From: Sphingobacteriaceae bacterium
GTDB lineage: Bacteria > Bacteroidota > Bacteroidia > B-17B0 > Aurantibacillaceae
Assembly: GCA_023251775.1 (NCBI GenBank)
Contig: JAHEYC010000025.1
Span: 1 to 42,211 of the forward strand
DNA: 42,211 nucleotides
Reading direction: 5' to 3'
Made by a program: the position numbers and the translations under genes. Shown piece after piece: positions 7,950 to 25,354 of this stretch; positions within the stretch are counted from its first letter, which is position 1, and each line of letters opens with the position of its first letter. The notes under the pieces were generated by a model. It saw nothing but the letters and a program-made list of their open reading frames with translations, ran no database searches and was not told the DNA's origin.

Positions 7950-10900
7950 TTATTCTTTTATCAGCTTCGTTACCTGCTCTAATTTCCCTTTAGAATTCAG
8001 AACTTTTACAATGTAAACACTATTAGGATGATCGCTCAGGTTTATTTCTGTAGTTAAACTTTCAACGTTCTTCTTTAAGATCAATTGTCCAACCATATTA
8101 TAAATTTCAACTCGCGCGCCTTCTGTAAATCCATGATAGGTCACAAATAATTGTCCGCTACTTGGGTTAGGGAATGTTTTTATGTTTGAATTACTACTAA
8201 GCTCTGCGAGGTCTGTTCCCAAGCATGACGAGACTGATACCGTTACAACAGCAAAACTCGAGCAACCCGTAGCCGTGGTATAAGTTACAGTTATGGTGTA
8301 CTGCGTAGTTGAAATTGGACTCACAACTTCAATTGCATTTATTCCGCCGCTTGACCATGAGTAGGAAACATTGGCACTAGCGAGCGCAATAAGTGTTGCG
8401 CTATTTCCCACGCAAACAATATTTGTGTTTGAACTTGCAGAAACACTAGGTGTAGGATCAGCCACAACAGTTACCGTAATAGGAGTAGAGGTACAACCAC
8501 TGGCATCTGTTGCTTGGAAAGTGTATGTGCCGGGAAGTACATTGTAAGCAACGCTCCATGAACTAACACTTGGTGTCCAACTGTAAGTATATCCCGGTAC
8601 GCCGCCGCTAACTGTCGCTTGAACTGCGCCGGTAGATTGTGAAGCACATGCGCTTGATGCGCTTCCTACGGCTACCAATGGTGTAGGTTCTAAAATACTT
8701 ACAGTTCCGTTGGTTGTACATCCGTTGGCGTCTGTTACCGTATAACTTTTTACACCTTGAGGAAAATTAGTTACTAAAGACGTTGTAGCACTTGATGGTG
8801 ACCAACTATAACTATATGCAGGAGTTCCTCCACTTACATTTACAGCCGCAATACCATTACTAAAACTAAAACATGTAACATTGGTTGCAGAAGCAACAGA
8901 CGTTAGCGAAGCAGGTTGTGTAATATTTACAACTAAACTTCCGGTTAATGCACAATGATTAGTTACATAAACCGTATTATTACTAACAGATTGGTTTACG
9001 ATAGAATTTGTTGTATTGCTCACAGGCGACCACGAGTATGTATGATTCAATCCGCCGGTGGAAGTAATAATTGCTAAACCGTTGTTACCTCCAAAACATG
9101 AAATATTTGTTTGACTGGCAACAATGATGGGTACCGGACAAGCCATCTCGTCGGCACCAACCGCAGGGAATGTTGCGCTGCGACCATTATTATCAATATC
9201 ATTCGTAATGCTAATTGGTGTTCCTAGTCCACCTTGATAAAGATTTGTACCAACATGAAGATCACCTGCTGCAGCATTTGTCCATAAGCCTGTTGTTGTA
9301 ATACTTGTAGTGATATTTTTTTGTGTGTTATTATCACCAAGAGAAAAAGCTTTCCAAACTGTGAGATTTGTTACCGTGCCTGACCAAACTGCCAATCGTG
9401 TAGTATCGCGCGTTAAGAAAGCATTATAATTAGAATAAGTACCACTCCAATTAACATTGGCAGCTGTTCCAATTGCAACGTGAGAAGCAGTTGAACCGGA
9501 TCTTTCGTTATATAATAAATTGTTGCGCATGCTCAAGTTAGAACTTCCGCCTCTGTAGAATCCATACGAGTTCACATTTCCGCTTGGAGAACTTCCTCCA
9601 AGGTAAACGGAATTATAATGAAAGTTCAAATTTGAACTATTTCCCATAAGATCAACAACACCTTTAAGATTTATAGTATTAGTGTTTGCGCCATTAGTGA
9701 TACTGATCATATTATTGCTTACTTCCCAAATGTTACCATCGTTAATAGAAATACCTGTTAATGCTGCACTGTTGCCTGTTTGAGCAGTGCTGAGATTATT
9801 GATAAAGTTTCTGCGCATTAATCCTCCAAATGTACCGCCTTGAGTTTGTATACCAACAGCGCTTCCGCCACCATTACCTGCATTGATGCAACTAAGTGCT
9901 GAAATTGTATTTTGATCCACAGTGTGCGTACCTGCCATTCCCTGGAAAGCAATTCCGTAATTCACAAAAGCAAACGCCGGCGGTAAAGCATTGGAAGAAA
10001 TATTCTTGATAAGGTTTGTGGAAAGGACCATTGCCCCTGTATTTCCAACTGTACCGATCATTAACATACCATAATGTTGTGACGAAGCGTTATTACTATT
10101 ATCAGTTATGTTTTGAATTGTATTTGAAACTGCAGTTAAAGCGGCGCCTGTTGAGATCTGATGACGCAAACCGTAAGCAAATGTTATTGCATTAATATTA
10201 TTGATAATGCTATTAGGTGTTGATGCACTTCCAATTAAATTATTAGAAATGGTACCGGCTTGTGCAGGTGTTCCTTGATTTTGGATCCATTGTGACGTAA
10301 TTGTTCCTGTTGTACTTGAACCATTGAGAGCAATAGAACCAATGGAATTATTACGAATATCGGCATTTCCATTAACGGCTGCATTTAATATACCGATAAC
10401 GGATGAGTTAACAGCACCGCCAGAGTTGATTGTAATTTTAATAGAACCTGTTCCTGTTGGTGCGCCAATAATATTTCCTGTTTGTGTACCAACGCTGTGA
10501 ACTCCGTTACCGATCTGCATCGCATTAAAAACTGTTGTTGCAACGGTAGGAGAGTTTGTTGTAAAGTCTATACCTCTGATCACATTGCCTTCCACAAAAT
10601 TCAGCATTTGTCCTGTAGAAATAAGTAAACCTGTAAAACTTTGATATACGGTTGGACCAACTACGCTTAAGGTCATATCCCCTGCAGCTAAAGGAGCATT
10701 TCCACCAATGTAATTATTGGCAACTGTAAATCCTCCGCTGGTATTTAATGCGCTTGATTGCATAATAGAAATACCATTCATTGATCCTCCTGATGTAGTG
10801 GTATGACTCTTAGCAGTTGTGTGATAAATACTATTAGTATTGATATTGCAAAGTGATGCACCTGTTGTAACAATAATTCCATAAGCAGAATTACCATTGA

Positions 10901-13900
10901 TAAAATAGTCGTGAATGTTATTATTCTTGATCACACAATTATTATTGTACTGATTTAAGAAACCGTTTGTACCGCTCACATTAATTCCCCCTGCAGGATA
11001 ACTTCCGACAATATCACTTCTATCTCTTATTTCGCAATTTGAAATGGTGATATTATCATTTCCATTCGTAGCAGACGTTGTACCAATAAGAACAGCACCA
11101 CCGCCAACGTTTGTAGTTAATTGATTTCCGCTTTCAATGATGGAATATTGTAAAATATTATTTTGCGCATCATTAATATAACCAACCGAAGAATGTTGAC
11201 CGGTGTTCCTAAAAGTTAACCACGTTCCTGCGTTATTAAATCTTCCGTCGATATTTACGCGATCGGCCCCATCAAAACGAACTAAACTTCCAATAGCACA
11301 CGGACCGGTAATGGTGCGTGTTATTGCCGCGCTTGGTTGAATGGTGAGAGAATAATTTCCTGCGCCATCTTCGGCCCATTGATTCAAAGCAATAGCACCG
11401 GTTTCTGTAATTAGATTACCCGTTATGTTCAATGTTGTATTACCAATAAGAACACCTTGATTGATGAGATCGAACATTCCGCCCGGATTTGTAAGTGATG
11501 TTACGGTTTCGGTTGGACCAACATTAAGTGTTCCTGTATAAACATTGGTTACGATGCTGTATTGATTGATGGTATTTCCCAAAGGAAATTGCGCTGCACC
11601 AAGATTAACATTGGCAGGTTGAACAGCAAAGCCGCCGTTATTAAGGCCAACGTTAAGTGGAGAGGCAAGATCTTGCGCGGTTACAAAATATTGAATAACA
11701 TCGCCCGCAACAACGTTTCCTCCTGTGAATAATAAAGAATAGTTGATAGTGAAATTGAATGGCGAACTGGTATTGCTTGCTTCCACATATTTCCAACCAT
11801 TGCTCGCAGATGTATTTCCGAGATAAGTATTGGCTTCCGTAGATTTTTTGTAATACAAACGTGGTCTTGTTCCTAGGGTTGTATTAATACCACTAAAATC
11901 GGTTATAGTTGCCCAACCTGTAGCGATCTTGTTAACTGCAACCGGAGAATTTGTAAATAGAGGATATTGAATATTAGGAGATGCATTATCCAGAAGAACA
12001 GCTATGAACTCATCTGCGCCAATATCGGGTGTGGTGGCGTTCCTTGCTTGAAAATCAATATCCGCTGAAAGAAGTCCTACCGGAGTTCCACCGTTATCAA
12101 TAGAAGTATTATAAAAATTTGATACGTGAATATCATAAGGAGCAGTTACGGTATTATTGAATGGAGGCGATTCGGAAATTGATGCTTGATCGCGCGGACC
12201 AACCAAATTTTTGAAACTTTGAAGTGTTTGTAAAGAATTAGTTCCATCATAATAAATTAAATTGGAAGGACCGGGAGCACCGGCATACAAACAATTGTAA
12301 CCCGAAAGAAGATGATAATTTGCAAGCGAGGTATTACCTCTTACTAAAGCTTTGCTTGAACCTGCTCCACTAGGCGTTGATGAGTTTGCCAAAATATTAT
12401 TTCTTAGATCGATGTTGAACGCAGCTGTGCCGCAGGTTAATGCGGAGGTACCAAAATTAGGACCCGCACTAACAGCGTCCAAATAAACGGTATTGAAATA
12501 TGATGCTAAAGATGAAGCAGCAGAACCTTGCAGCCAAATACCATAGATGGCATTTGTATTATTCGCATTTGGTGTTTTTAATTCGCAAATGAAGTTATTA
12601 TGAACTTCGCATTGAATATTATTATTGGTGCCAATATTAATTGCGTAAACTGCCGGAGTAATTCCGGTTGCTGTTGTATTACTTAAATTATAGATCCTGT
12701 TTCGATAGACATTACAAACAGTTCCGAAATCTACAAAAATAGCGCCCACAGAATTTGCGGCACTATTACCTGTAATATTATAGATCTTGTTTCCATAGAT
12801 CTCTTTGTTAGTAGGACCGGATCCCGCGCGCGCGTAAATGGAAACATGTTCGCCACCGCCCGAACTATTATTGAAAAAATCATTATCGTGCACAAGTTCA
12901 TTATTACAGAACATCGCATTATAATAACCATAGAATGCGCCTGATGATGCTACTGCGCTATTGTTGAACACCTTGTTCTGATATATTTCAAACTGATTTG
13001 CTGAAGCATTACCATAGATGCAATTGAAAACTCCCGAAGCGCCCGTTTTTGTATTAGCACTGATAGTATTACTATATATTTTCAAAGCAAGCACCTGTGT
13101 AGAGTTATTATTATTTTCGTAAATACCCGAAAATTCACCTGTGCCTGCAATGTTATTACTGTTAATTGTATTGCTGTATATACTTCTGAAACTAGAAGTG
13201 GCAGTATTTTCGATAGCTCTAAAAGTTCCTGACGTATTTGTTGGATAAGCACAGCTTGTAATAAGATTTTCGTAGATACGAACGGTGTTACCTGCGCCTG
13301 TGCCTCCCATGTCGCAACTAATTCCGGTTAATTGAGAAGCTGTTATGCTATTAAGCGATAAAGTAATTGTATCACGATACACATCTAAATTGGAATTGGT
13401 ACCTCCGGTTAAAGTGATTCCTGACATAACGCCTGTACTATTTGGAGCACCGCTATTATTAATATAAGTTGAATGGATCTTGAGTCCGTTTTGATTGGTA
13501 GCAAAAACACCATCGGCTTGAACGGCCGCGCCACCAAATTTTACCACTTGACTACGGCGTGTGCTTATACCATCAACACCAATTAGATTATTTTGATCGT
13601 AAAAATCATAAGGTACTGCAGATGCATAACCGGTGAACGAATATCCTTCATAACAATTTTGGAGAGAGTTATTATAGAATTTATTATTGCTGCTTGTACC
13701 ACTGATATTACTCACAACTAATCCGGTGATATTTGTTGCAATGTGATTTCCAATATAGATCCCTTTTGAAGCTGTATTCGCATTTGAAAGTGTAATAGAA
13801 CAATTTTTGATGGTAGTATTCCAACAACCATTAGTTGCCGATACTTTTACAAGGGCATAACCCCATTCCATTAATTGTGTTGGGGTAACATTACCCGGAT

Positions 13901-14480: not shown

Positions 14481-14804
14481 CTACTTAATGAACTCGTGTG
14501 AGGATTCTACCAGGCAGATCTGCGATAAATAACGTTTATACCAAGCCTTCGCCTGATCTTTGGCCATTTTATGCGTGGTATTAATGCGCCATTTTTCAAT
14601 ACTCTCTTTGTTTTCCCAATACGAAATAAAAATTCCGGTATTGCCGTTGTTCACGCTTTCGTAACCTAAATATCCCGGTTGTTCGGCCGCTAATTTTAAA
14701 GTTAGCTCATCCATTTCGGCATAGCCTTCGCGTTGTTCTTCTTTTGTTGAAGCAAAAATAACTGCATAATAATTAGAGCGGGGGAGTGGTTTGATATATG
14801 GCAT
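14481..14804 (-). CDS. Antibiotic-biosynthesis-monooxygenase (ABM) domain protein
   Basis: A 107-residue protein with the dimeric ferredoxin-like ABM fold: YYAVIFASTKEE (beta 1), a helix, QPGYLGYESVNNGNTGIFIS (beta 2-3) and YWENKESIEKWRINTTHKMA, the usual W-x-x-x-E-x-x-x-x-W pattern. The family includes haem-degrading and quinol monooxygenases and many proteins without known substrate; none can be chosen here. An ATG at 14804 is preferred to an upstream in-frame TTG at 14810. It is the last gene of the six-gene leftward run, 26 bp after the acyl-CoA ligase, so it may protect or modify a lipid product. Confidence 0.75.
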   Translation of the reverse strand: MPYIKPLPRSNYYAVIFASTKEEQREGYAEMDELTLKLAAEQPGYLGYESVNNGNTGIFISYWENKESIEKWRINTTHKMAKDQAKAWYKRYLSQICLVESSHEFIK

Positions 14805-14830
14805 GAGCAAAATTAGTTAAATATTTTTTA

Positions 14831-16630
14831 TCATTCTTCCCCCGACCCGAATATAGCATCAATAACCGCTTTATTTTTTTCCTTGATCACTTTTCGTTTT
14901 AAACTTAACTTTGGCGTTACTTCACCACTTTCTACGCTCCATTGCGCACTAATTAATTTGCAACGTTTCAAATGCTCATAAGGTGCATGAACTTTATTTA
15001 ATTCTTTTACATGCTCATTGATCAATTTGCTGAGCTCGTCGCATTCTAACATTTTTTCATTTCCAAGCCACTCAATATTATTTGCTTTACAATGTTCTTT
15101 AAAATTAAGGATGTTGGGAATAATTATGGCCGACGCAAATTTTTGTCCTTCGCCAATAACCATACATTGCTCCACAAATTTGCATTCCTTTAATTTATTT
15201 TCAATTGCTACGGGTGAAATGTATTTTCCTGCGCTGGTCTTAAATAATTCTTTTTTGCGATCCGTTATCTTTAAAAATTTATTGTCAACAAATATACCAA
15301 CATCACCTGTGTGAAACCAACCTTCAGGATCAATGGCTTCATCAGTTGCTTCTTGATTTTTGTAATAGCCCATCATTAAATTCGGACCTTTCATCAAGAT
15401 CTCGCCGTCTTCTTCTGCAATTTTTACGGTAACTCCACTTAATACCGGACCAACAGTTCCAAACTTGATATTATTTTCTCCAAAGCAATTGGCGGCAATA
15501 ACTACCGACGTTTCTGTCATGCCATACCCTTGTAAAAGTGTTATTTTTGCGCAACTGAATACGCGTTCAATTTTTGGATTTAATGCTGCGCCACCGCTAA
15601 CAATACAAACAAGTTTTCCTCCAAAGGCTTCGCGCCATTTGCTATAAACTAATCGATCGCAAATTTTTCGTTGGAGTTCGTACCATGCACCGTTTGCACC
15701 GTTGAGTTCGTATTTTTCCGCAATTTTTACACTGAGGTCAAATATTTTCTTTTTAAAACCTGTGAGCTTATCACCTGCGGCGTAAAATTTCTCAATTACT
15801 CTTTCAAAAATGCGGGGAACAGAAACAAATATTTGAGGTTGAATATCTCTGGCGTTCTCGGCAATGGTCTCAAAATTTTCGGCATAATAAACACTCACAC
15901 CTTTGAACAAATATAAATTCACTAGAACGCGTTCGTACACATGATTTAAAGGTAAAAAGCTAAGCGCTTTCCAATACGATTCAATTGGCGCCAATGCTTG
16001 AAGTGCTTTTACGTTGCTTAATAATCCCTTGTGCGAGATCATTACGCCCTTTGGGTGACCGGTTGTTCCGGATGTATAAAGAATGGTGAAAAGATCATTC
16101 TCCGAAATTCCTGCTTTGATAGCGTCAATATAAGCTTGATCGTAATTCTTTTTTCCTAATTCGATCAATTCGGAAATATGTTTTACACCTTCAATAACAT
16201 TAAAACTATAAATGTGTTTTAAGTTTGGAAGATCTTTTTGAATTGCTTGTAATTTATTGTAAATACTTTTATCTGAAATGAAAGCTACTTTGGCTTCGGA
16301 GTGAGATAAAATAAATTTCAGATCATCTGCTCCTATTGTTGGGAAAATGGGAACACTTGGCATTGCCACTTGTTGTGCGGCGAAATCCACAAAATTCCAT
16401 TCGGGTCGGTTATTCGACATAATGGCAATTGTATTTTTTTTCTCAAGGCCTAATGCCAAAAGTCCCGCGCTGATGTAATTTACATTGCTTACAAAATCAG
16501 AAACGCTGTGTTTTACCCAGTTCTTTCCTGATCTTCCATTGGGCAATAATTCTTTATTGCTCAAAATATCTGTTTTAGACGAATTTAATTTCAAATTATC
16601 TAAAATATCGAATACTCTAGTTAGTTCCAT
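14831..16630 (-). CDS. Long-chain acyl-CoA synthetase (AMP-forming, FadD15-like)
   Basis: A 599-residue adenylate-forming ligase that activates fatty acids with ATP to an acyl-AMP and then a thioester. Motifs in order: TILYTSGTTGHPKGVMISHK (P-loop, ~residue 180), QGYGMTETSVVIAANC (A5), GWFHTGDVG (A7) and DRKKELFKTSAGKYISP (A8). Length matches the FadD15/FAA group, which act on long chains. There are no membrane helices. The gene follows the PlsC-like gene by 20 bp and precedes the ABM gene by 26 bp. In E. coli Aas, a ligase of this superfamily is fused to a PlsC domain; here they are neighbours, which suggests that the activated acyl chain is passed to the acyltransferase. Confidence 0.92.
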   Translation of the reverse strand: MELTRVFDILDNLKLNSSKTDILSNKELLPNGRSGKNWVKHSVSDFVSNVNYISAGLLALGLEKKNTIAIMSNNRPEWNFVDFAAQQVAMPSVPIFPTIGADDLKFILSHSEAKVAFISDKSIYNKLQAIQKDLPNLKHIYSFNVIEGVKHISELIELGKKNYDQAYIDAIKAGISENDLFTILYTSGTTGHPKGVMISHKGLLSNVKALQALAPIESYWKALSFLPLNHVYERVLVNLYLFKGVSVYYAENFETIAENARDIQPQIFVSVPRIFERVIEKFYAAGDKLTGFKKKIFDLSVKIAEKYELNGANGAWYELQRKICDRLVYSKWREAFGGKLVCIVSGGAALNPKIERVFSCAKITLLQGYGMTETSVVIAANCFGENNIKFGTVGPVLSGVTVKIAEEDGEILMKGPNLMMGYYKNQEATDEAIDPEGWFHTGDVGIFVDNKFLKITDRKKELFKTSAGKYISPVAIENKLKECKFVEQCMVIGEGQKFASAIIIPNILNFKEHCKANNIEWLGNEKMLECDELSKLINEHVKELNKVHAPYEHLKRCKLISAQWSVESGEVTPKLSLKRKVIKEKNKAVIDAIFGSGEE

Positions 16631-16650
16631 AAAATGTTTTGTTTAAGTGA

Positions 16651-18060
16651 TTAAAGATCGACCATGTTGTCGTTTTCTATTGGTTCTTTAGAAACAGCTT
16701 CTTGTTTCGGACCATCGCGATAGATCACAAATTCTTTTCTTGCTTTTTCTAATTCGTTAATAATTATTTCTCGTTCGGTGATGAGTGATGTCATTACAGT
16801 GGTTCGTTTGTAGAAGAGTGAGAAGATCTTCCAACTGCCACGAATTGACTTAAATCGTTTGTAATAATAAAATGCAAGCAAACCTGAAATTGGTAAAGAA
16901 AGTCCGTAGCCCAATACATATCGCCAATCGTGAGTTAGTTTATTGACAAGTAAAATTTGGAGCGTATAAAATATCAGAAAGGTGAATGTACCCATGCTGT
17001 AGGCAATTGACCCATGAAATTCGGGACGTTTTGAAATAAGACGAGCGCACCAAAATGGAATTCTGAAAGGCAAGAAATTATTTATGAAGCCATATAAAAA
17101 TAGGGGAAAGCCAAGGGTCAAATAAATTATTGAGAAGATGGTATCAGAAACAGGTTTTGTTTTTTCCACACCTTTGATCAACTTATCATCTAGCGAAAGG
17201 TTATCAAGTTTATTTAAATACGAACTTATTTTATTCTTCAACACTTCTACGCGTTGCGGATCTCTTTCTAAAAAATAATGCACCGAGTCGCTGATCTGTC
17301 TAGTTGTATTAAAATCATGAGCCATTACTTTTGGCGAATGTCCTAAGTCTTCGAGTAATTGCGCTTTAAAAATAGTTTCAATATTGGCCACAAATTTATC
17401 TACATCCGAATCTTGTATGGCAACAACTTGCGCTTCTAAGCGTTTACGAATCTCATCGGTAAGAGCGTGCGCGGCCTTAAATGTATCTTGTTTGTATTGA
17501 TCGTAATAATCAGAAACATTTATTGGCTTATCAATATTTATGAATAGATCGCTTTGAAATTTGTGTGGATTCGAAAAATTCAATCCAATGGTTACTATTT
17601 TTACATCTAGAGAAAAATTATTTTCAGCTTCAGCACCCAAACAAATTCGCGCTGTTCCCGATTGGATCTTTTTGATCTTACGTTCGGTGAGTGAAATTCC
17701 CTCAGGAAAAGCAAGTATAGCCCCTCCTTTTGCAAAATGTTTATAACATTGCGAGAACACATCTTTATTCTTACTGGTTAGTCCCGGTGTTTCATGACTT
17801 CTAAAAATTGGAATGATATTGAGATGGGGCAGCAACCATTTTAATAATGGATTTTGAAACAGAACACCTTTTCCTAAAATAAATAGTGGACGAGGCGAAA
17901 TAGTTGCAATTACCAAAGGATCCATAAAAGCGCTTGGATGATTGGCTGCTAAGAATACCGGTCCTTTTTTTGGAATATTCTCAAGCCCATTTACCTGAAG
18001 CGTTTTAAAGTAAAACTTATTGGTAATTCGAAAAAGGCTACGTATGATCTGATAAAGCAT
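16651..18060 (-). CDS. PlsC-type lysophospholipid / glycerolipid acyltransferase with C-terminal membrane domain
   Basis: A 469-residue protein. The N-terminal ~230 residues form an LPLAT domain with the HX4D motif (NHPSAFMDP, His ~41), IIPIFRSHET and the FPEGISLTERK substrate block. This resembles the fungal-GPAT-like LPLAT group more than small housekeeping PlsC. Residues ~300-410 hold about three to four membrane segments (IIYLTLGFPLFLYGF, FTFLIFYTLQILL, VLGYGLSLPISGLLAFYYY), and a basic coiled tail follows. It should transfer an acyl chain to a lysophospholipid or glycerol phosphate in the inner membrane. It begins 2 bp after the MFS gene stop and is followed by the ligase gene after 20 bp, so the three are almost certainly co-translated. 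Confidence 0.88.
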   Translation of the reverse strand: MLYQIIRSLFRITNKFYFKTLQVNGLENIPKKGPVFLAANHPSAFMDPLVIATISPRPLFILGKGVLFQNPLLKWLLPHLNIIPIFRSHETPGLTSKNKDVFSQCYKHFAKGGAILAFPEGISLTERKIKKIQSGTARICLGAEAENNFSLDVKIVTIGLNFSNPHKFQSDLFINIDKPINVSDYYDQYKQDTFKAAHALTDEIRKRLEAQVVAIQDSDVDKFVANIETIFKAQLLEDLGHSPKVMAHDFNTTRQISDSVHYFLERDPQRVEVLKNKISSYLNKLDNLSLDDKLIKGVEKTKPVSDTIFSIIYLTLGFPLFLYGFINNFLPFRIPFWCARLISKRPEFHGSIAYSMGTFTFLIFYTLQILLVNKLTHDWRYVLGYGLSLPISGLLAFYYYKRFKSIRGSWKIFSLFYKRTTVMTSLITEREIIINELEKARKEFVIYRDGPKQEAVSKEPIENDNMVDL

Positions 18061-18062
18061 AA

Positions 18063-19433
18063 TTAAACTCTTTGAGTTTTAGGATTAGGAACAAATAATA
18101 AACCAATAAAACCAACAACAAAAAATACGATGAGAGAAAGAACAGAAGGACGCATACCGCCCATGATCTCACTTATCAATCCAAAAGAAACAGTACCAAT
18201 GATCATTCCTAATTTTTCCATAACATCATAAAAACTAAAGAAACTTGTATTATCATCTGTTTCGGGTAAAAATTTACTATAGGTACTTCGCGATAAGGAT
18301 TGAATTCCCCCCATCACAAAACCAACTAACACGGCCACCACATAAAAATGTATGGGCAATCGTACAACGGCATACGTAAATACGCAAATAAATATCCAAA
18401 TAAGAATGGTGACCATTAATGATCTTAAATTTCCGATCTTGCGTGATAGTCGCGAGAAAGTAAAAGCTCCTAAGATCCCAATGAATTGAATAATTAAAAT
18501 ACTTACGATCAATGATGTTGTTTTTGCTTTTTCGGCAGCTTCACCTGTTCCCCATTCAACTTCATTGCGTGCAAATAAAACGGCAACTACCATTACGGTT
18601 TGAACGCCCATATTATAAAAGAAATAACTAATTAAGAATCTTCTTAACGCAACCATTTTGCGGATCTTTCCAAAAACAGATTTTAATTCTTTAAAACCTT
18701 TCCATATCAAACCTTTTGTGTCTTTACCATGCGCATCATGAACTTTCCCGGGTAAATGTTTAAATGTGTATTGAGCAAATCCCATCCACCATAATCCGGT
18801 TAAAAGGAAAGAGTATTTTACTTTAAAAAATCCTTTGGTACTAACAACAACGCCGTCTACAATTGTTTCTTCATATTTAAACACCATAATTCCAACTAAA
18901 CAAATGATAAGCAATAATGAACTTCCTAAATATCCCATTGAAAATCCGCGTGCGCTTACTTTGTCTTGATTTTCGGTACTTGCAATTTCGGGTAAATAGG
19001 AATTATAGTAAACTAAACTGCCCCAAAATCCAACGGTTGCGGTAACGAATGGAATAAAACTTAATTCGAGATGGTTTCGTGTAAAGAAAAATAAGCACAT
19101 ACATGAAATAGAACCTAAGTAACAGAAGAATTGGAGAAAACGTTTTTTATTTCCAAGATAATCGGCAATACCGCTTAATATGGGTGTAACAAAAACTACA
19201 ATGGATAATGCAAAAGCATACACAAAGGTGTAAATATTTTGATTCTCAAATTCAGTTCCAAAACAAGTAACGGTATGGCCGATCATATTTTTGGCTTCAT
19301 CGTGTGTAGTTACGTAATCATAAAAATTCGGGAAGATGGCCGATGTAATTACCAAAGGGAAAACCGAATTCGCCCAATCGTAAATGGTCCACGCTTTGAT
19401 GATCGCTTTGTTGTCTTTTGGAATGGTTTGCAT
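18063..19433 (-). CDS. MFS transporter, UMF1 (Atg22-like) family
   Basis: A 456-residue protein with about 12 membrane segments. The N terminus has the UMF1 hallmark WTIYDWANSVFPLVI, and the family core continues with LSGIADYLGNKKRFL (loop 2-3) and QSLSRSTYSKFLP. Eukaryotic relatives (Atg22) export amino acids from vacuoles; bacterial substrates are not known. The gene is 17 bp after the outer-membrane DUF6268-like gene and 2 bp before the PlsC-like gene. That position matches LplT, the MFS lysophospholipid flippase next to Aas in Enterobacteria, although LplT belongs to a different MFS family. A role in lysolipid uptake is therefore an inference from context. Confidence 0.88.
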   Translation of the reverse strand: MQTIPKDNKAIIKAWTIYDWANSVFPLVITSAIFPNFYDYVTTHDEAKNMIGHTVTCFGTEFENQNIYTFVYAFALSIVVFVTPILSGIADYLGNKKRFLQFFCYLGSISCMCLFFFTRNHLELSFIPFVTATVGFWGSLVYYNSYLPEIASTENQDKVSARGFSMGYLGSSLLLIICLVGIMVFKYEETIVDGVVVSTKGFFKVKYSFLLTGLWWMGFAQYTFKHLPGKVHDAHGKDTKGLIWKGFKELKSVFGKIRKMVALRRFLISYFFYNMGVQTVMVVAVLFARNEVEWGTGEAAEKAKTTSLIVSILIIQFIGILGAFTFSRLSRKIGNLRSLMVTILIWIFICVFTYAVVRLPIHFYVVAVLVGFVMGGIQSLSRSTYSKFLPETDDNTSFFSFYDVMEKLGMIIGTVSFGLISEIMGGMRPSVLSLIVFFVVGFIGLLFVPNPKTQRV

Positions 19434-19450
19434 ACGTTTTATTTTAGGTG

Positions 19451-20365
19451 TTATGATTTCTTTTCTAAATTGAATCGGTAAAGTAAAGTTGCTTGAAATA
19501 TCATGCCATTTGAGAAATTAGTATTTAGCTGTTGACGTTTGCCTCCAATGAATGTAGCGGGCAAACCAAAAGTTACTTTATCGCCTTCATCAAAAACTTT
19601 GTAGCTTCTTCCGAGTGATTGACCAACTTTTGTGGTAATGCTTAAACTTTTGGTGACATTGAATTTTAAGTAAGCATAAAACTCATTGGTTGAACGTGCA
19701 ATGTATGTGCTTTTATGTGTTGGTGTAACATCTGTTAAGTGATACGAACGAATTTGTCCGTTGAAATTGAATCCAACATTCATAAAAGGAATTAATTTGT
19801 AGTTAACATCCGCTTGTAAGGGCAACATGATGTTTGTTTCAAATTTTTTATTTGGACTTAAATAATACATACCTACCATTGGCACAAAAAACGGACCGAA
19901 TAATTCGGAATTATAATACAAGCCAAATTTAAAGTTTTTATTATCACTCTTTTTGTATTTCATTATTCCAACGGCACCAAACTGAAGATCTATTCCTGAG
20001 ATATTTTTATAATCGGAGGCGATCTTAGGAAGTAATACGGCGGTTCCCGACCAGCGATCGTTGAATAGTTTATTAGCGCCAATTTTAAGTGCAGTTGAAC
20101 CAAACGTTTTTACATTACCATCTTCAAATAATTTGGTTTGAAAGCTTTCGAACATAGCGCCTGAGATAATGGACAATTTATCGTTGATCTTTATTGGAAC
20201 CGTAAGATCAACATCTATTTGATCGATCTTTGTTTTAGACGTGCTTGTATCAAATGTATTATAAGGAGTAGTACTCGCGTTCACCTTTAATATATCCACG
20301 TAATTCTGTCCCATGAGTTCGCCGAAGTTCAAAAGGGTAATGAATATGATAAATAAATGTTTCAT
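19451..20365 (-). CDS. Outer-membrane beta-barrel-like protein (DUF6268 type)
   Basis: A 304-residue protein with a signal peptide (MKHLFIIFITLLNFGELMGQ). The mature part has repeated amphipathic strands with alternating hydrophobic residues (KLSIISGAMFESFQ, KFGLYYNSELFGPFFVPMVG, FYAYLKFNVTKSLSITTKVG) and ends in an aromatic strand, FQATLLYRFNLE. The pattern fits an outer-membrane barrel, and the sequence looks like the Bacteroidota family DUF6268; the family name is from memory, so moderately sure. It lies 21 bp after the DUF2147 gene and 17 bp before the MFS gene. A barrel ahead of a transporter, acyltransferase and ligase suggests a lipid-related envelope job. Confidence 0.7.
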   Translation of the reverse strand: MKHLFIIFITLLNFGELMGQNYVDILKVNASTTPYNTFDTSTSKTKIDQIDVDLTVPIKINDKLSIISGAMFESFQTKLFEDGNVKTFGSTALKIGANKLFNDRWSGTAVLLPKIASDYKNISGIDLQFGAVGIMKYKKSDNKNFKFGLYYNSELFGPFFVPMVGMYYLSPNKKFETNIMLPLQADVNYKLIPFMNVGFNFNGQIRSYHLTDVTPTHKSTYIARSTNEFYAYLKFNVTKSLSITTKVGQSLGRSYKVFDEGDKVTFGLPATFIGGKRQQLNTNFSNGMIFQATLLYRFNLEKKS

Positions 20366-20386
20366 AAGTTTGAAATTGAAACGCTA

Positions 20387-20845
20387 TTATTTACTTGGAT
20401 TTAATTTTGTGAAGGTCTCTGTGCGGCCGAGTAGTGATATACCCATGAATCCTCTGATATTAAGATCCCCGTTTGCAAGACGAGTAATTTTACAGCTGTA
20501 AGTTTTTCCGTTCTTTGGATCGTAAATTGTCCCGTTCTCCCAAATATCATCACCATCAAATGTAAAATCATTTAAAATGGTCATTCCTAATACTTTTTGT
20601 GTTTGTTTTGCTTTATCGGGATTATTCACATCTAACTTATTTGGATCTTTATTTAAAATGATCTTGCCGTAATATTTTCCGGCCTTTTCATAAATTTGAA
20701 TAGCACCATCTTTTGATGGTACTAAATAATTACCTACAATATCTCCTGCTTTATTTTGCGCACCTCCAATAAAAGAGAATAGTACGAATAGTAAAAGCAA
20801 TGAGATCTTTTTTATTAAGCTTGTTGTTGTGTGTTGAGTTTTCAT
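20387..20845 (-). CDS. DUF2147 secreted protein
   Basis: A 152-residue exported protein. The signal peptide spans ~1-29 with hydrophobic core SLLLLFVLFSFIGGAQ. The mature domain matches the DUF2147 layout: DIVGNYLVPSKDGAIQIYEK, then KYYGKIILNKDPNKLD, the GMTILNDFTFDGDDIWENG core, IYDPKNGKTYSCKI and LNIRGFMGISLLGRTETF. DUF2147 proteins are periplasmic or secreted small beta-barrels of unknown activity. It is the promoter-proximal gene of the six-gene run; a weak -7 match (TACCTTTA) lies about 60 bases upstream of the ATG. Confidence 0.85.
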   Translation of the reverse strand: MKTQHTTTSLIKKISLLLLFVLFSFIGGAQNKAGDIVGNYLVPSKDGAIQIYEKAGKYYGKIILNKDPNKLDVNNPDKAKQTQKVLGMTILNDFTFDGDDIWENGTIYDPKNGKTYSCKITRLANGDLNIRGFMGISLLGRTETFTKLNPSK

Positions 20846-21234
20846 AATTTTAATTTTTTGGGTTTATAATTAATTTTATGGAGTAAAGGTATTGCGAGTG
20901 CTGCGCCATAAATAATTACTTTTTGCTGAGCGTATTTTTTGTTCCGCAAAAAACGTAAGAACCAGTTCAAGATAACAGAATTTTTAGGATAGTTTTAATT
21001 ATCACAACAAAAGATATGATACTTGCGGTTATTGCAAATAATAGGGAGAAGGATTATTGAAATTAGATGGAGAAAAGTAGAAACATTTTAAAAATCATCA
21101 TAATATACTGTAAATAAGGTAGTTACGAGCATTAATATGCAGCACCTTTCGATGTTAGTGTTTGTTTTAACCGCAAAAGGCGCAAAGACGCAGAGGTTTC
21201 TGAATTATTCGTTTGCGGGATTGGTGTTTCGTTT

Positions 21235-21301
21235 GCGGGACAAAATGTCCCGCACAACCTGAGCAGCCGAAATTCAAGTTGAACGGGACATTTTGTCCCG
21301 C
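21235..21301. repeat. Paired GCGGGACAAAATGTCCCGC hairpins in inverted order
   Basis: Two near-identical 18-19 bp hairpins (arms GCGGGACA and TGTCCCGC) face each other 30 bp apart. Each is palindromic and the pair is also inverted. A partial GTTTGCGGGA copy occurs just upstream at about 21211-21220. Confidence 0.6.
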
Positions 21302-21472
21302 AGGAAAATTACATTCCAACTTTCCAATCTGCCGCGTGAGGGATTGAGCCATTGTTTGAGCTCCTTTTTTATCTTGGTTAATTCCATAAGATAAAAAAGA
21401 GCGAGTGGCGAAAGCCCGACCCGAGCTTCCATAGTGTTTCCTGCGAGGGACACGCCCTAATAATCTGAAATG

Positions 21473-21497
21473 AAAAAACCTCCTGAATGAGAGGTTT
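21473..21497 (-). terminator. Intrinsic terminator of phaC
   Basis: Read leftward, AACCTC, an 8-base loop and GAGGTT followed by a T run form a hairpin 33 bases beyond the phaC stop codon. Confidence 0.6.
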
Positions 21498-21529
21498 AAT
21501 ATTATAGTTTAAAAAATAGAAGAGTAAAA

Positions 21530-22576
21530 TTAATTATCCCTTTTCGCCAACCAACTTACAACGGCCGGTGCTAATTCTTTTTGTGATTTACCTCCAACAA
21601 ACACACCAATGTGCCCGCCTTTAAAGCTGTAAAGTTCTTTGTCTTTACTTCCAACAAGATCATTCAAAGGAATTGTTGCCGCAGGAGGAACCAAATGATC
21701 GTCGGTTGCGTAAATATTTAAAAGGGGCGAGGTAAGATTTTTGAGACTTACTTTTTTACCGCCAACTTCTAATTCGCCCTTCACTAATTTATTTTTTTGG
21801 TAAAGATCTTTCATGAATTCGCGAAAACATTCGCCTGCTTGGGCGGGACTTTCGCTTATCCATTTTTCCATGCGAAGAAAATTGGTAAGTTTTGCCTCGT
21901 CCTCTAAACTTGCGGCGAGTGTTTGCTGCTTTTGAATTTTCATCATTGGTTTTAGCATATCAAAACCCTGATTCAAAAAATCACCCGGTATCAATCCGTC
22001 AAAACCATCAACTATTTTATCAAAATCCATGTCTTTACTCCAACGAAACAACAAAGCATCATTGGTACTAAAATCAACCGGCGTTACATGCGTTACTAAA
22101 TTCTTTATTTTATTTGGATATAAAGCCGAATAGATCACGCTTAAAGTTCCGCCCTGGCAAATACTTAAGATATTTATTTTCTCTACGCGATCTCTTTTTC
22201 TAATAAGGTCAACGCAATTATTTATGTATCCATTCACATAATCATCCATGTTAAGGTAACGATCGCTTTTTGTTGGAAATCCCCAATCAATAAGGTAAAC
22301 ATCAAAACCATTGTCCAATAAATTTTTGATATAACTGCGATCGGGTTGAAGATCGAGCATTTTGTACGTATTCACTAAAGCGTAAATAACAAGAATGGGT
22401 GTTTTAAACTCTGCTTTTGTTTTGCGATCGTAACGGTAAAGTGTGAGTTTATCTTCGGTATAAACCGCAGTTTTAGGCGTTGTAGCAATTTCTACAGCCT
22501 TCATGTTATTTAATGTTTCGTAACTCTTGGTGAGTTTACGGCTAACATCTCCCATTTCTTCAAAAATATTATTCAT
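21530..22576 (-). CDS. phaC: Class III polyhydroxyalkanoate synthase catalytic subunit PhaC
   Basis: A 348-residue alpha/beta-hydrolase enzyme that polymerises (R)-3-hydroxyacyl-CoA into PHA granules. The lipase-like box has Cys in place of Ser: ILSICQGGTLS with Cys140. Asp293 lies in ATDDHLVPP and His322 in GGHIGVFVGG. These three are each nine residues before Cys149, Asp302 and His331 of the Allochromatium vinosum class III enzyme, so the spacing of the catalytic triad is the same. The short length (about 350) and the adjacent phaE also point to class III. Cytoplasmic, on granules. A terminator and a 159-bp palindromic element separate it from phaE, so it probably has its own promoter, although no clear -7 box was found there. 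Confidence 0.93.
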   Translation of the reverse strand: MNNIFEEMGDVSRKLTKSYETLNNMKAVEIATTPKTAVYTEDKLTLYRYDRKTKAEFKTPILVIYALVNTYKMLDLQPDRSYIKNLLDNGFDVYLIDWGFPTKSDRYLNMDDYVNGYINNCVDLIRKRDRVEKINILSICQGGTLSVIYSALYPNKIKNLVTHVTPVDFSTNDALLFRWSKDMDFDKIVDGFDGLIPGDFLNQGFDMLKPMMKIQKQQTLAASLEDEAKLTNFLRMEKWISESPAQAGECFREFMKDLYQKNKLVKGELEVGGKKVSLKNLTSPLLNIYATDDHLVPPAATIPLNDLVGSKDKELYSFKGGHIGVFVGGKSQKELAPAVVSWLAKRDN

Positions 22577-22755: not shown

Positions 22756-22781
22756 CTAATATACCAAAAATAATTTCAAAA

Positions 22782-22812
22782 AAAAGCCGCCTCAAACACA
22801 AAGGCGGCTTTT
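22782..22812 (-). terminator. Strong intrinsic terminator of phaE
   Basis: AAAAGCCGCCT and AGGCGGCTTTT form an 11-bp stem around a 9-base loop, and the leftward transcript ends in a T run. It lies 20 bases after the phaE stop codon and should stop most read-through into phaC. Confidence 0.8.
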
Positions 22813-22831
22813 AACACATCAGCTAAAAGTA

Positions 22832-24190
22832 TTATTTCTTTCCTTTTTTGCTGCTCTTCTCATCATCCAGATCACTAACAACAGCGATATTAAGCTTGCT
22901 TTGTAGTTCTTTCACTTGTTTTTTTAGATCGTAAATTGTTTTTTGTAATTCTTCAACGTCGCTTTTTAAAACAACAGGGAAGTTAACCAAAACGCTTTCG
23001 AATTGTTTTTCAAAATGTTTTTTTACATCCATGGCAAGGGTCATTGTTTCACCTTTGATCTTGCTGAATTCCTCACTTGCAAAAAGATCTGCAAATAATT
23101 TTTCGTTGGTCTTGATCCACTCGTTATACACTTCCTTAGCATCAGGAGCTTTAGTGAAATCAGGATTTTGGAATTTCTCGGCGTATTGTTTTGCAACATC
23201 TTCTACGCTTGTGCGCATGGTATTTTGCAATTGGTATTGTAATTCGCTTTGTTTTACATTATACTCAGTTACTTTATCCATTAAAGCAATAATAGCTTCA
23301 ATGCTTTCTTTTTCTTTACCTGCACCGGTTAATTTCAATAAAGGTTCAAAGGTTTTAGTGAACACATTATCGTGTTGCGAATAAAATTCTTTTACTTTTT
23401 CTAAGTTGCCAGTAAATAATTGAGGGAACTCTTTGCTGATATTTTGAACTTGCGCAAAGTATTCTTTACCCAAACCGTTTTGGTTAGTAAAGAAATTTTG
23501 AACTTGATTCAAACTATTATCATAAAATTCTTTCAAATTCCCACCGGTATAAAAATCACCAAACAATTGTTTAGTTAAGTTGTGGTAATTATCCGCTTTA
23601 AAATACGTTTTAAATTCTTCTAAGTTGAACTGCCCTTTTTGCATAGAAGTGATCATTGGTTGAAAGAACTCAAGCATTTTTGTATACACTTGGTTACTTT
23701 GCATGAAGTTTGAGAAGATATCTTTATTGAAATTACCATTGATATTCTTCGACATGCTATCGTAAGATGTATTCAACGTTTGAACGAACGAATTGTAGAT
23801 ATTTGTCCAAGCATTATTAGATGTTGTAAAATTGCTCACATAATCCTGAGCAGGTTTTCCAAAACTATTAAAGCTATTTAAAATGCTCTGATTAAAATCG
23901 GTCATTTGTTTAGCAAAAGTTGTTTGCGTGTTCAACCAATTTTTGAAGAACTCTTGTGGATTTTGGTTTGTGTCGGTACCAAAAACATTACTAGAATTTT
24001 GTTGCATGCTGTTCAAGATCGCGGTTTGTTTTTCGAACCACTCTTTTAAAATGCCTTGACCCTCGTGAGGGATATTTCCGCTTGTTAAAGAAGATTGCAT
24101 TTTCTTTGCTGAATCCATCCAACTGTTTAACGCATTTGCTTGCGCCTCTAACATCGAATCGATAATTGGATTGTTTGTTTTCATCGTCAT
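22832..24190 (-). CDS. phaE: Class III PHA synthase subunit PhaE
   Basis: A 452-residue, mostly helical protein, longer than the usual ~360. It has no catalytic box. The N-terminal half is rich in Asn, Gln, Phe and Trp-containing amphipathic helices (NALNSWMDSAKKMQSSL, EWFEKQTAILNSMQQNSSN, FFKNWLNTQTTFAKQM), a phasin-like pattern. The PhaE-typical block is in the C-terminal half (KVTEYNVKQSELQYQLQNTM, then KEVYNEWIKTNEKLFADLF). A predicted coiled coil (LQKTIYDLKKQVKELQSKL) and a basic tail (SSKKGKK) end it. PhaE pairs with and activates PhaC. A good promoter lies upstream at 24279-24310. An ATG two codons downstream (24184) is an equally possible start. Confidence 0.85.
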   Translation of the reverse strand: MTMKTNNPIIDSMLEAQANALNSWMDSAKKMQSSLTSGNIPHEGQGILKEWFEKQTAILNSMQQNSSNVFGTDTNQNPQEFFKNWLNTQTTFAKQMTDFNQSILNSFNSFGKPAQDYVSNFTTSNNAWTNIYNSFVQTLNTSYDSMSKNINGNFNKDIFSNFMQSNQVYTKMLEFFQPMITSMQKGQFNLEEFKTYFKADNYHNLTKQLFGDFYTGGNLKEFYDNSLNQVQNFFTNQNGLGKEYFAQVQNISKEFPQLFTGNLEKVKEFYSQHDNVFTKTFEPLLKLTGAGKEKESIEAIIALMDKVTEYNVKQSELQYQLQNTMRTSVEDVAKQYAEKFQNPDFTKAPDAKEVYNEWIKTNEKLFADLFASEEFSKIKGETMTLAMDVKKHFEKQFESVLVNFPVVLKSDVEELQKTIYDLKKQVKELQSKLNIAVVSDLDDEKSSKKGKK

Positions 24191-24278
24191 TGTATTATTT
24201 TTTTATGTGTTTGTTTCCAGCAAAGTTTCGTAATTTTTTGATTATCAGTAAATTACAACCCCTTCGGGAAATGTTTCG

Positions 24279-24310
24279 CAAAGATACATAATTAATCGTA
24301 TAAAATCCAA
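24279..24310 (-). promoter_or_regulatory. phaE: Promoter of phaE (TTG-N21-TATCTTTG)
   Basis: On the minus strand TTG at 24310-24308 and TATCTTTG at 24286-24279 are separated by 21 bases, a full match to the Bacteroidota -33/-7 pattern. Transcription would start near 24272, giving a leader of about 80 bases. Confidence 0.65.
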
Positions 24311-24397
24311 GCTTTGTCGATTAAATTAATGTTAAAAAATTGATTCCTAACGCTTTATCGGTTTAGTAATTCGTATTAAAGCAAAAGCATTTAAAAA

Positions 24398-24429
24398 TTG
24401 TCGCAATTGCCTTGTGGTTCATACTTTTG
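24398..24429 (+). promoter_or_regulatory. queG: Promoter of queG (TTG-N21-TACTTTTG), directly before the coding frame
   Basis: TTG at 24398-24400 and TACTTTTG at 24422-24429 are exactly 21 bases apart. The -7 box ends four bases before the likely first codon at 24434, so the message would carry little or no leader. Confidence 0.6.
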
Positions 24430-24433
24430 AAGC

Positions 24434-25354
24434 ATCAAAACAGTTACTTCAAATAATACCCTCTTTATTAAACGCGAAGCAGCTCGTTTAGGTTTCGATT
24501 TTTGTGGCATAAGTAAGGCCGAATTTTTGGAAGAAGATGCGCCAAGACTTGAGAAATGGCTCAATGAACACAAGCACGGACAAATGAAGTACATGGAAAA
24601 TTACTTCGATAAGCGTTTGGATCCGCGTTTATTGGTAGAAGGCGCTAAGTCCGTGATATCGTTGATGTATAATTATTATCCGAGTGAAAAACAAAAAGTA
24701 TCCGGACCAAAAATCAGCAAGTATGCTTATGGAAAAGATTATCATGAAGTGATAAAAGATAAACTCACTGAATTTTTAAATTCATTAAAAGAAAAAATTG
24801 GAGATGTGAATGGAAGAGTGTTTGTTGATTCTGCACCTGTATTAGAAAAAAGTTGGGCCGCCAAAAGTGGATTGGGTTGGATAGGGAAGAATGCAAATTT
24901 AATTACAAAAGAAAGTGGATCGTTCTATTTTTTGGCAGAGTTGATCATTGATCTGGAATTAGAATACGACGGACCAATAAAAGATTATTGCGGCACGTGC
25001 ACAAAATGTATTGATGCTTGTCCTACCCAAGCAATTATTGAACCGTATATAGTAGATGGAAGTAAATGTATTTCGTATCTGACAATAGAATTAAAAGAAA
25101 ATATTCCAACGGAGTTCAAAGGCAAAATGGATAATTGGGCTTTTGGTTGTGATGTATGTCAGGATGTTTGTCCTTGGAACAGTTTTAGCAAACCCCACAA
25201 CGAACCTTTGTTCAGTAATAGGACGTTATTGAACCTCTCAGAAAAAGAATGGCACGAAATGACCGAAGAAACGTTCAAAGTGGTGTTCAACGGCAGTGCT
25301 GTAAAGCGAACAAAGTATGCGGGATTGAAACGAAATCTCAAATTTTTGGAATAA
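24434..25354 (+). CDS. queG: Epoxyqueuosine reductase QueG, start codon not ATG
   Basis: Reduces epoxyqueuosine to queuosine in tRNA, using cobalamin and two 4Fe-4S clusters. Cluster motifs are clear: [12 protein letters not shown] (Cys186, 189, 192, 196) and CDVCQDVCP (Cys239, 242, 246); the family core [17 protein letters not shown] and [10 protein letters not shown] are also present. Length from 24434 is 306 residues, normal for the family. The family N terminus ([20 protein letters not shown]) is fully encoded but has no in-frame ATG: a TGA at 24428-24430 closes the frame, and the first codon after it that gives the usual length is ATC at 24434. The first standard alternative, TTG at 24527, would remove about 31 conserved residues. 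So the start is ATC, an ATG lost by mutation, or a sequence error. Confidence 0.88.

Follow-up and report, generated by a model that had tools for sequence, protein, structure and literature searches.

We describe here five compact genes on one strand, in a stretch of 42,211 nucleotides (contig JAHEYC010000025.1, positions 1-42,211, genome G000; hereafter the window, to which all window coordinates refer), which encode a DUF2147 protein, a DUF6268 protein, a major facilitator superfamily (MFS) transporter, a PlsC-type acyltransferase and an acyl-CoA ligase, and which lie between phaC and an ABM-domain gene that adjoin each other in G025, a genome from the genus of the window organism. Judged by comparison with related genomes, this five-gene cassette is real, narrowly spread and apparently movable; whole or partial versions stand at other chromosome sites, and the set therefore behaves as a movable cassette. 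That its products form an envelope-spanning salvage route for acyl chains or lysolipids is a proposal that we hold to be evenly poised. A preliminary description of this DNA had presented a six-gene operon, with the ABM gene as its last member, as an unfused version of LplT-Aas lysophospholipid recycling. The features concerned are as follows.

22832-24190, minus strand: PhaE, class III polyhydroxyalkanoate (PHA) synthase subunit (PF09712, 92 bits).
21530-22576, minus strand: PhaC, class III PHA synthase (TIGR01836, 459 bits, cut-off 365; 84% in G025), the neighbour upstream of the inserted block.
20846-21529: non-coding stretch that separates phaC from the cassette, with a terminator-like hairpin and a palindromic pair, and without a match to G025 DNA.
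20387-20845, minus strand: exported DUF2147 protein, lipocalin-like (PF09917, 114 bits), first cassette gene.
19451-20365, minus strand: DUF6268 protein, modelled as an outer-membrane beta-barrel, with an N-terminal hydrophobic helix (PF19783, 47 bits).
18063-19433, minus strand: UMF1/Atg22-family MFS transporter (PF11700, 246.6 bits, cut-off 24.1, residues 8-453).
16651-18060, minus strand: PlsC-type acyltransferase with a long helical C-terminal half (PF01553, 68 bits).
14831-16630, minus strand: AMP-forming long-chain acyl-CoA ligase (PF00501, 232 bits; AMP-binding_C_3, PF23562, 38 bits), last cassette gene.
14481-14810, minus strand: ABM-domain protein (PF03992, 33 bits), judged to lie outside the cassette.

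The six open reading frames (ORFs) from DUF2147 to ABM agree with the families and spacing first given for them, and the Pfam matches of all six proteins exceed the curated cut-offs. From DUF2147 through DUF6268, MFS and PlsC to the ligase the gaps are 21, 17, 2 and 20 bp; the gap between ligase and ABM measures 20 bp from the TTG start of ABM and 26 bp from its ATG. Six genes as one unit did not survive comparison: their order occurs in no other genome examined, and a conserved six-gene operon was rejected across the genomes of relatives. These comprised an order sample of 87 genomes, the window's included, and a class sample of 198, many of the compared genomes being metagenome-assembled; adjacency across both samples was judged by eye from coordinates. 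A literature search of titles and abstract openings found no published description of this gene set; papers naming DUF2147 numbered 9, and DUF6268 was named in 1.

The insertion is seen most directly at the junction with phaC. The phaE-phaC pair, overlooked in the preliminary description, lies directly upstream of DUF2147 on the same strand. In G025 the order is phaE, phaC, ABM, with ABM 85 bp behind phaC, and on both sides the flanking genes share their clusters with those that flank the window's locus. Compared by blastn with this locus (L099), window positions 21530-22492 pair with 9060-10023 and 22779-24996 with 10157-12387, while 14505-14774, in ABM, align with 8691-8960, just behind phaC; the block from DUF2147 to the ligase, about 6.75 kb, is unmatched, and G025 has about 100 bp in its place. 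No DUF6268 match was found in G025, and its sole PlsC match is a distant paralogue (28%). Among the 29 other ABM-bearing genomes, ABM adjoins phaC in one (G025) and, as far as the ligase matches listed go, lies on a different contig from the ligase in all 29. On these comparisons the ABM gene is an accidental neighbour that appears to belong with phaC and to have no part in the cassette. Its proposed place as sixth member was accordingly dropped, and a part for it in lipid repair was rejected on the phaC-ABM adjacency in G025 and the blastn pairing of both flanks.

The 685 bp between phaC and DUF2147 contain the terminator-like hairpin (21497-21476) and the palindrome GCGGGACATTTTGTCCCGC at 21235-21253, with a second copy, differing at one position, at 21283-21301 (0.01 expected by chance); this pair, 21235-21301, is possibly a repeat element or an insertion scar. 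A role of the cassette in PHA metabolism was also considered and set aside, because no phaC adjoins the other copies or parts of the cassette in the DNA fetched, and because the hairpin and the 685 bp stand in between. As to PhaC itself, a match occurs in 78 of the 87 genomes of the order, and PHA storage therefore looks like a core trait there.

The five families recur in the window's order in G069, from another genus, where they are spread over two contig ends and the site has no connection with pha. Contig C3 ends with DUF2147 (73%), DUF6268 (66%) and the first 304 residues of the MFS protein; contig C43 begins with a C-terminal fragment of PlsC, whose stop codon precedes an 81%-identical ligase by 36 bp. 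No ABM match was found in this genome, which is 76% complete. The families flanking the two contig ends also bracket a lone, broken DUF6268 gene in G080 and, with other genes intervening, DUF6268 in G074, which supports the two ends being one locus. Partial sets are found in further genomes. In G081, DUF2147 (69%) and DUF6268 stand at the end of one contig, and a ligase fragment (80%) lies on a separate one. PlsC proteins close to that of the window (62-87%) are listed in 4 of the 86 other genomes of the order, in addition to the G069 fragment; the other PlsC matches in the order are at 21-33% over long stretches, or short. Of these four, G004 carries a DUF6268-PlsC pair, with MFS 3.3 Mb off on the same contig. 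G038 carries DUF6268, a 26-residue MFS remnant (L063 3892-3969) and PlsC, with a full MFS gene on another contig; the remnant is apparently a decayed cassette copy. In G031 and G057, PlsC has no other cassette family adjoining it, the MFS gene of G031 being 289 kb away.

A scan of contigs with the PlsC alignment yielded 24 loci. Loci sharing one record were counted once (L105/L063, which is G038; L106/L065; L107/L129; L108/L066; L109/L133; L110/L132; L119/L131; L125/L134), and L112, L114, L123 and others are short loci whose neighbours may lie beyond the fetched DNA. Besides G038, L107 has DUF6268-MFS-PlsC and L125 has PlsC-DUF6268; at none of the 24 does a ligase, ABM or DUF2147 gene adjoin PlsC, the ligase of L127 being 3.8 kb off on the opposite strand. 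By genome, PlsC-DUF6268 pairs are found in G117 and G104, both from other families. Of all pairings, that of DUF6268 and PlsC recurs most often, either directly adjacent or with MFS in between. Across the 198 genomes of the class, among the matches listed, MFS adjoins PlsC in the window genome, G153 and G087, and PlsC adjoins the ligase in the window alone, with G069 added by its contig ends. The UMF1-PlsC link is, by these coordinates, occasional rather than general. The G087 pair (L130 2984-5519), from another family, is a distant one whose MFS is matched in two frames, part of it being absent. Thus, the survey of gene order that had been proposed for the Bacteroidota, run here on the order and class samples, shows little conservation outside close relatives, an outcome named beforehand as refuting the operon, since the six-gene order is unseen elsewhere and the five-gene order was otherwise seen only in G069; the exception is the DUF6268-PlsC pair, and because this recurs across families the cassette is of some interest.

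The MFS gene has a match in 84 of the 87 genomes of the order, mostly once per genome, and at 24 of 30 loci of the order it adjoins an OmpA-family gene. In the window genome the cassette copy is the only one found, and behind the OmpA orthologue (63%) an epimerase gene takes the place of MFS. In a tree of MFS proteins (36 rows kept, those identical to another over a 100-residue stretch being dropped), the incomplete cassette copy of G069 forms a pair with that of L107 (86/90), outside the clade of the G069 core copy (98/98); several nearby forks are weakly supported. G153, the genome of the L107 record and a member of another family, has a 77% cassette MFS beside PlsC and a second, 50% MFS elsewhere; the contig is 7.4 kb long and may be contamination in that bin. 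Placement in the tree, together with the differing chromosome sites, points to horizontal movement of the cassette.

What the five proteins might do is suggested by their families and folds. DUF2147 has an N-terminal hydrophobic segment (residues 10-28 in a hydropathy scan), and its nearest solved chain is HP1028 (4inn; phmmer E 2e-6, 31 bits), which is named a lipocalin in the title of a 2013 paper cited by PMC9570263 and in a table of the latter. Homology to HP1028 makes DUF2147 lipocalin-like, with ligand binding predicted. DUF6268 is modelled, with modest confidence (predicted local distance difference test, pLDDT, 64), as an outer-membrane barrel whose N-terminal helix is probably a signal peptide. 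Its fold matches are tied among OmpG, CymA, CymD, FadL and TodX (Z 13-14.7, root-mean-square deviation (rmsd) 3.6-4.8 Å, about 205-250 residues aligned), with Foldseek TM-scores of 0.19-0.49; a class finer than outer-membrane barrel was not reached, given the tie of OmpG, CymA, FadL and TodX. The addition of two envelope proteins, as first described, holds, DUF2147 being of exported type and DUF6268 a barrel in its model, and both are compatible with a lipid route. A lipocalin-related DUF2147 and a barrel-modelled DUF6268 therefore make acyl or lysolipid salvage plausible.

The transporter matches PF11700 over its full length and so belongs to the UMF1/Atg22 family. It matches no NCBIfam model at E 0.01, NF006386 (the fused transferase-ligase model) included, and a sequence search for solved relatives gave none at E 0.1. 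Assignment to the LplT family found no support (PF11700, 247 bits; no NCBIfam match), which agrees with the earlier statement that the transporter comes from a different MFS family. PlsC-type acyltransferases usually have their catalytic motif spaced H-X4-D. The window protein has the PF01553 acyltransferase domain with a His-Asp motif, NHPSAFMD, spaced H-X5-D and with one variable position among 21 sequences; catalysis is predicted. Its model (pLDDT 83) matches GPAT1 (8e4y, Z 12.5, rmsd 3.9, 239 aligned) and Thermotoga maritima PlsC (5kym, Z 12.4, rmsd 3.8, 188 aligned). As to the membrane tail first ascribed to it, the C-terminal half is long and mostly helical in the model, yet a crude hydropathy scan found only one membrane segment there. 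A distant PlsC paralogue in the window genome (26-28%; L072 8550-9875) has NHPNAFMD, likewise H-X5-D, as does one in L079, and most genomes of the order have listed matches as long as the L072 paralogue at 22-33% identity. The ligase, predicted to act on long chains, combines the AMP-binding domain PF00501 with the C-terminal PF23562; the best NCBIfam model is FadD11 (292 bits, below the cut-off of 950), and a second copy in the window genome is 62% identical.

From these assignments we infer how the five products could work as one envelope-spanning route. At the outer membrane, lipocalin-like DUF2147 and barrel-modelled DUF6268 would deal with a hydrophobic substrate, either free fatty acid or lysolipid; fatty acids would be turned into acyl-CoA by the ligase; the membrane acyltransferase PlsC would re-esterify the acyl chain onto a lysolipid or glycerol acceptor; and the UMF1 transporter, presumably taken from the core gene, would carry that acceptor, or a polar compound related to it, through the inner membrane.

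Several observations weigh against a movable salvage cassette. Evidence for the five-gene order comes from the window and from two contig ends, read as one locus, in a 76%-complete genome; among the 12 other genomes with DUF6268 relatives of at least 45%, the DNA fetched for 8 contains no other family of the window's set; no ligase was seen beside PlsC outside the window and G069 among the matches listed; and MFS belongs to the core genes and in most genomes lies apart from PlsC and the ligase. The DUF6268 model is weak, with low TM-scores and fold matches tied among many barrels, and G025 could have lost the five-gene block rather than never held it. Some of this would suit a loose co-location, in which rearrangement gathered a few envelope and lipid genes that have no more than a promoter in common: the six-gene order is unrepeated, gene content varies between sites, those eight DUF6268 relatives stand apart from the other families, and MFS and the ligase are common core genes. 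Yet DUF6268-PlsC recurs in several families and the five families keep one order in two genera, with gaps of 2-21 bp, and we regard mere co-location as rather doubtful. Capture of exogenous fatty acids in the manner of FadL-FadD would have DUF6268 admit them, the ligase trap them as acyl-CoA and PlsC use them in phospholipid synthesis, the MFS protein being unrelated. The top fold matches of DUF6268 include FadL and TodX chains, FadD-type models are the best for the acyl-CoA ligase, PlsC matches the GPAT1 and PlsC folds, and no pairing recurs more often than that of DUF6268 and PlsC. OmpG and CymA are not known to be fatty-acid channels. Both, however, tie with the FadL chains (Z 13.1-14.0) on a low-confidence model with low TM-scores, and the ligase is missing beside the other PlsC copies except in G069; such capture seems to us rather doubtful as well.

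A functional equivalent of LplT-Aas, with the MFS protein flipping lysophospholipid inward, the ligase activating an acyl chain and PlsC re-acylating, finds support in a gene order that fits the PlsC-then-ligase arrangement of NF006386 and recurs in G069. It also finds support in the lipocalin-like partner, given that the Escherichia coli lipocalin Blc was found to bind lysophosphatidylethanolamine, as related in PMC8177097, which itself argues for heme binding by Blc. Against this equivalence, the transporter is of the UMF1/Atg22 type without an NF006386 match, MFS stands next to OmpA at 24 of 30 loci and away from PlsC and the ligase in most genomes, and PlsC-ligase adjacency is absent from the other rows among the matches listed for the 198 class genomes; we judge it unlikely. 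Within the movable salvage cassette that we favour, the most novel form would be a horizontally moving lysolipid and fatty-acid salvage cassette of bacteria bearing a type 9 secretion system, in which a core-derived UMF1/Atg22 protein is the lysolipid importer for separate PlsC and ligase enzymes, fed by a lipocalin and an outer-membrane barrel. This form is quite improbable; if true, it would mean that LplT-Aas had been reinvented independently, and bacterial UMF1 proteins would gain a substrate. More generally, were the envelope route real, it would show salvage of damaged or foreign lipids in Gram-negative bacteria outside the enterobacteria and offer a testable role for DUF2147, DUF6268 and bacterial UMF1 transporters. 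Even if it is wrong, the locus illustrates how closely packed, operon-like genes in a single genome can mask an insertion, and why related genomes must be compared before adjoining genes, ABM being an example, are placed in a pathway.

Elsewhere in the window, a BRO-N protein lies beside a phage-type integrase (602-2576), likely a mobile element, and a C10 peptidase with a Spi inhibitor domain and a type 9 secretion tail is encoded at 34768-37029.

Among known systems, LplT-Aas is one of the closest. In Enterobacteria the MFS protein LplT flips lysophospholipid inward, and Aas, a PlsC domain fused to an acyl-ACP/CoA ligase, re-acylates it. LplT and Aas form a bicistronic operon in many Gram-negative bacteria and are fused in some (PMC11416262). 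On NF006386 the window PlsC aligns at profile positions 415-542 and the ligase at 899-1065, PlsC preceding the ligase. The region of the model ahead of PlsC we take to be an LplT-type MFS. The cassette shares with LplT-Aas an MFS protein, a PlsC-type transferase and an AMP-forming ligase, encoded together in the window and, by contig ends, in G069, and elsewhere unseen among the matches listed; the DUF6268-MFS-PlsC part of the order recurs in L107. It differs in its UMF1/Atg22 transporter, in its separate ligase and transferase genes, 20 bp apart, in the long helical C-terminal half of the transferase, in its two added envelope proteins and in a narrow distribution in the genomes searched. Thus, of the preliminary description, three separate genes in the same order stand, as the ORFs and the profile alignment agree, whereas membership in LplT-Aas fails because the transporter family differs and the PlsC-ligase fusion is missing; the comparison is fair as an analogy. 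FadL-FadD uptake combines an outer-membrane barrel with a long-chain acyl-CoA ligase, as does the cassette with its modelled barrel; yet DUF6268 has about 300 residues and compares with FadL only through tied fold matches, and the cassette adds a lipocalin-like protein, an MFS transporter and an acyltransferase. The PlsC-type protein resembles GPAT/PlsC acyltransferases in its domain and in its fold matches to GPAT1 and T. maritima PlsC, and departs from them in its H-X5-D spacing and helical C-terminal half. The transporter, finally, matches the UMF1/Atg22 family over its full length, but sits beside PlsC, whereas its usual neighbour in the order is an OmpA-family gene.

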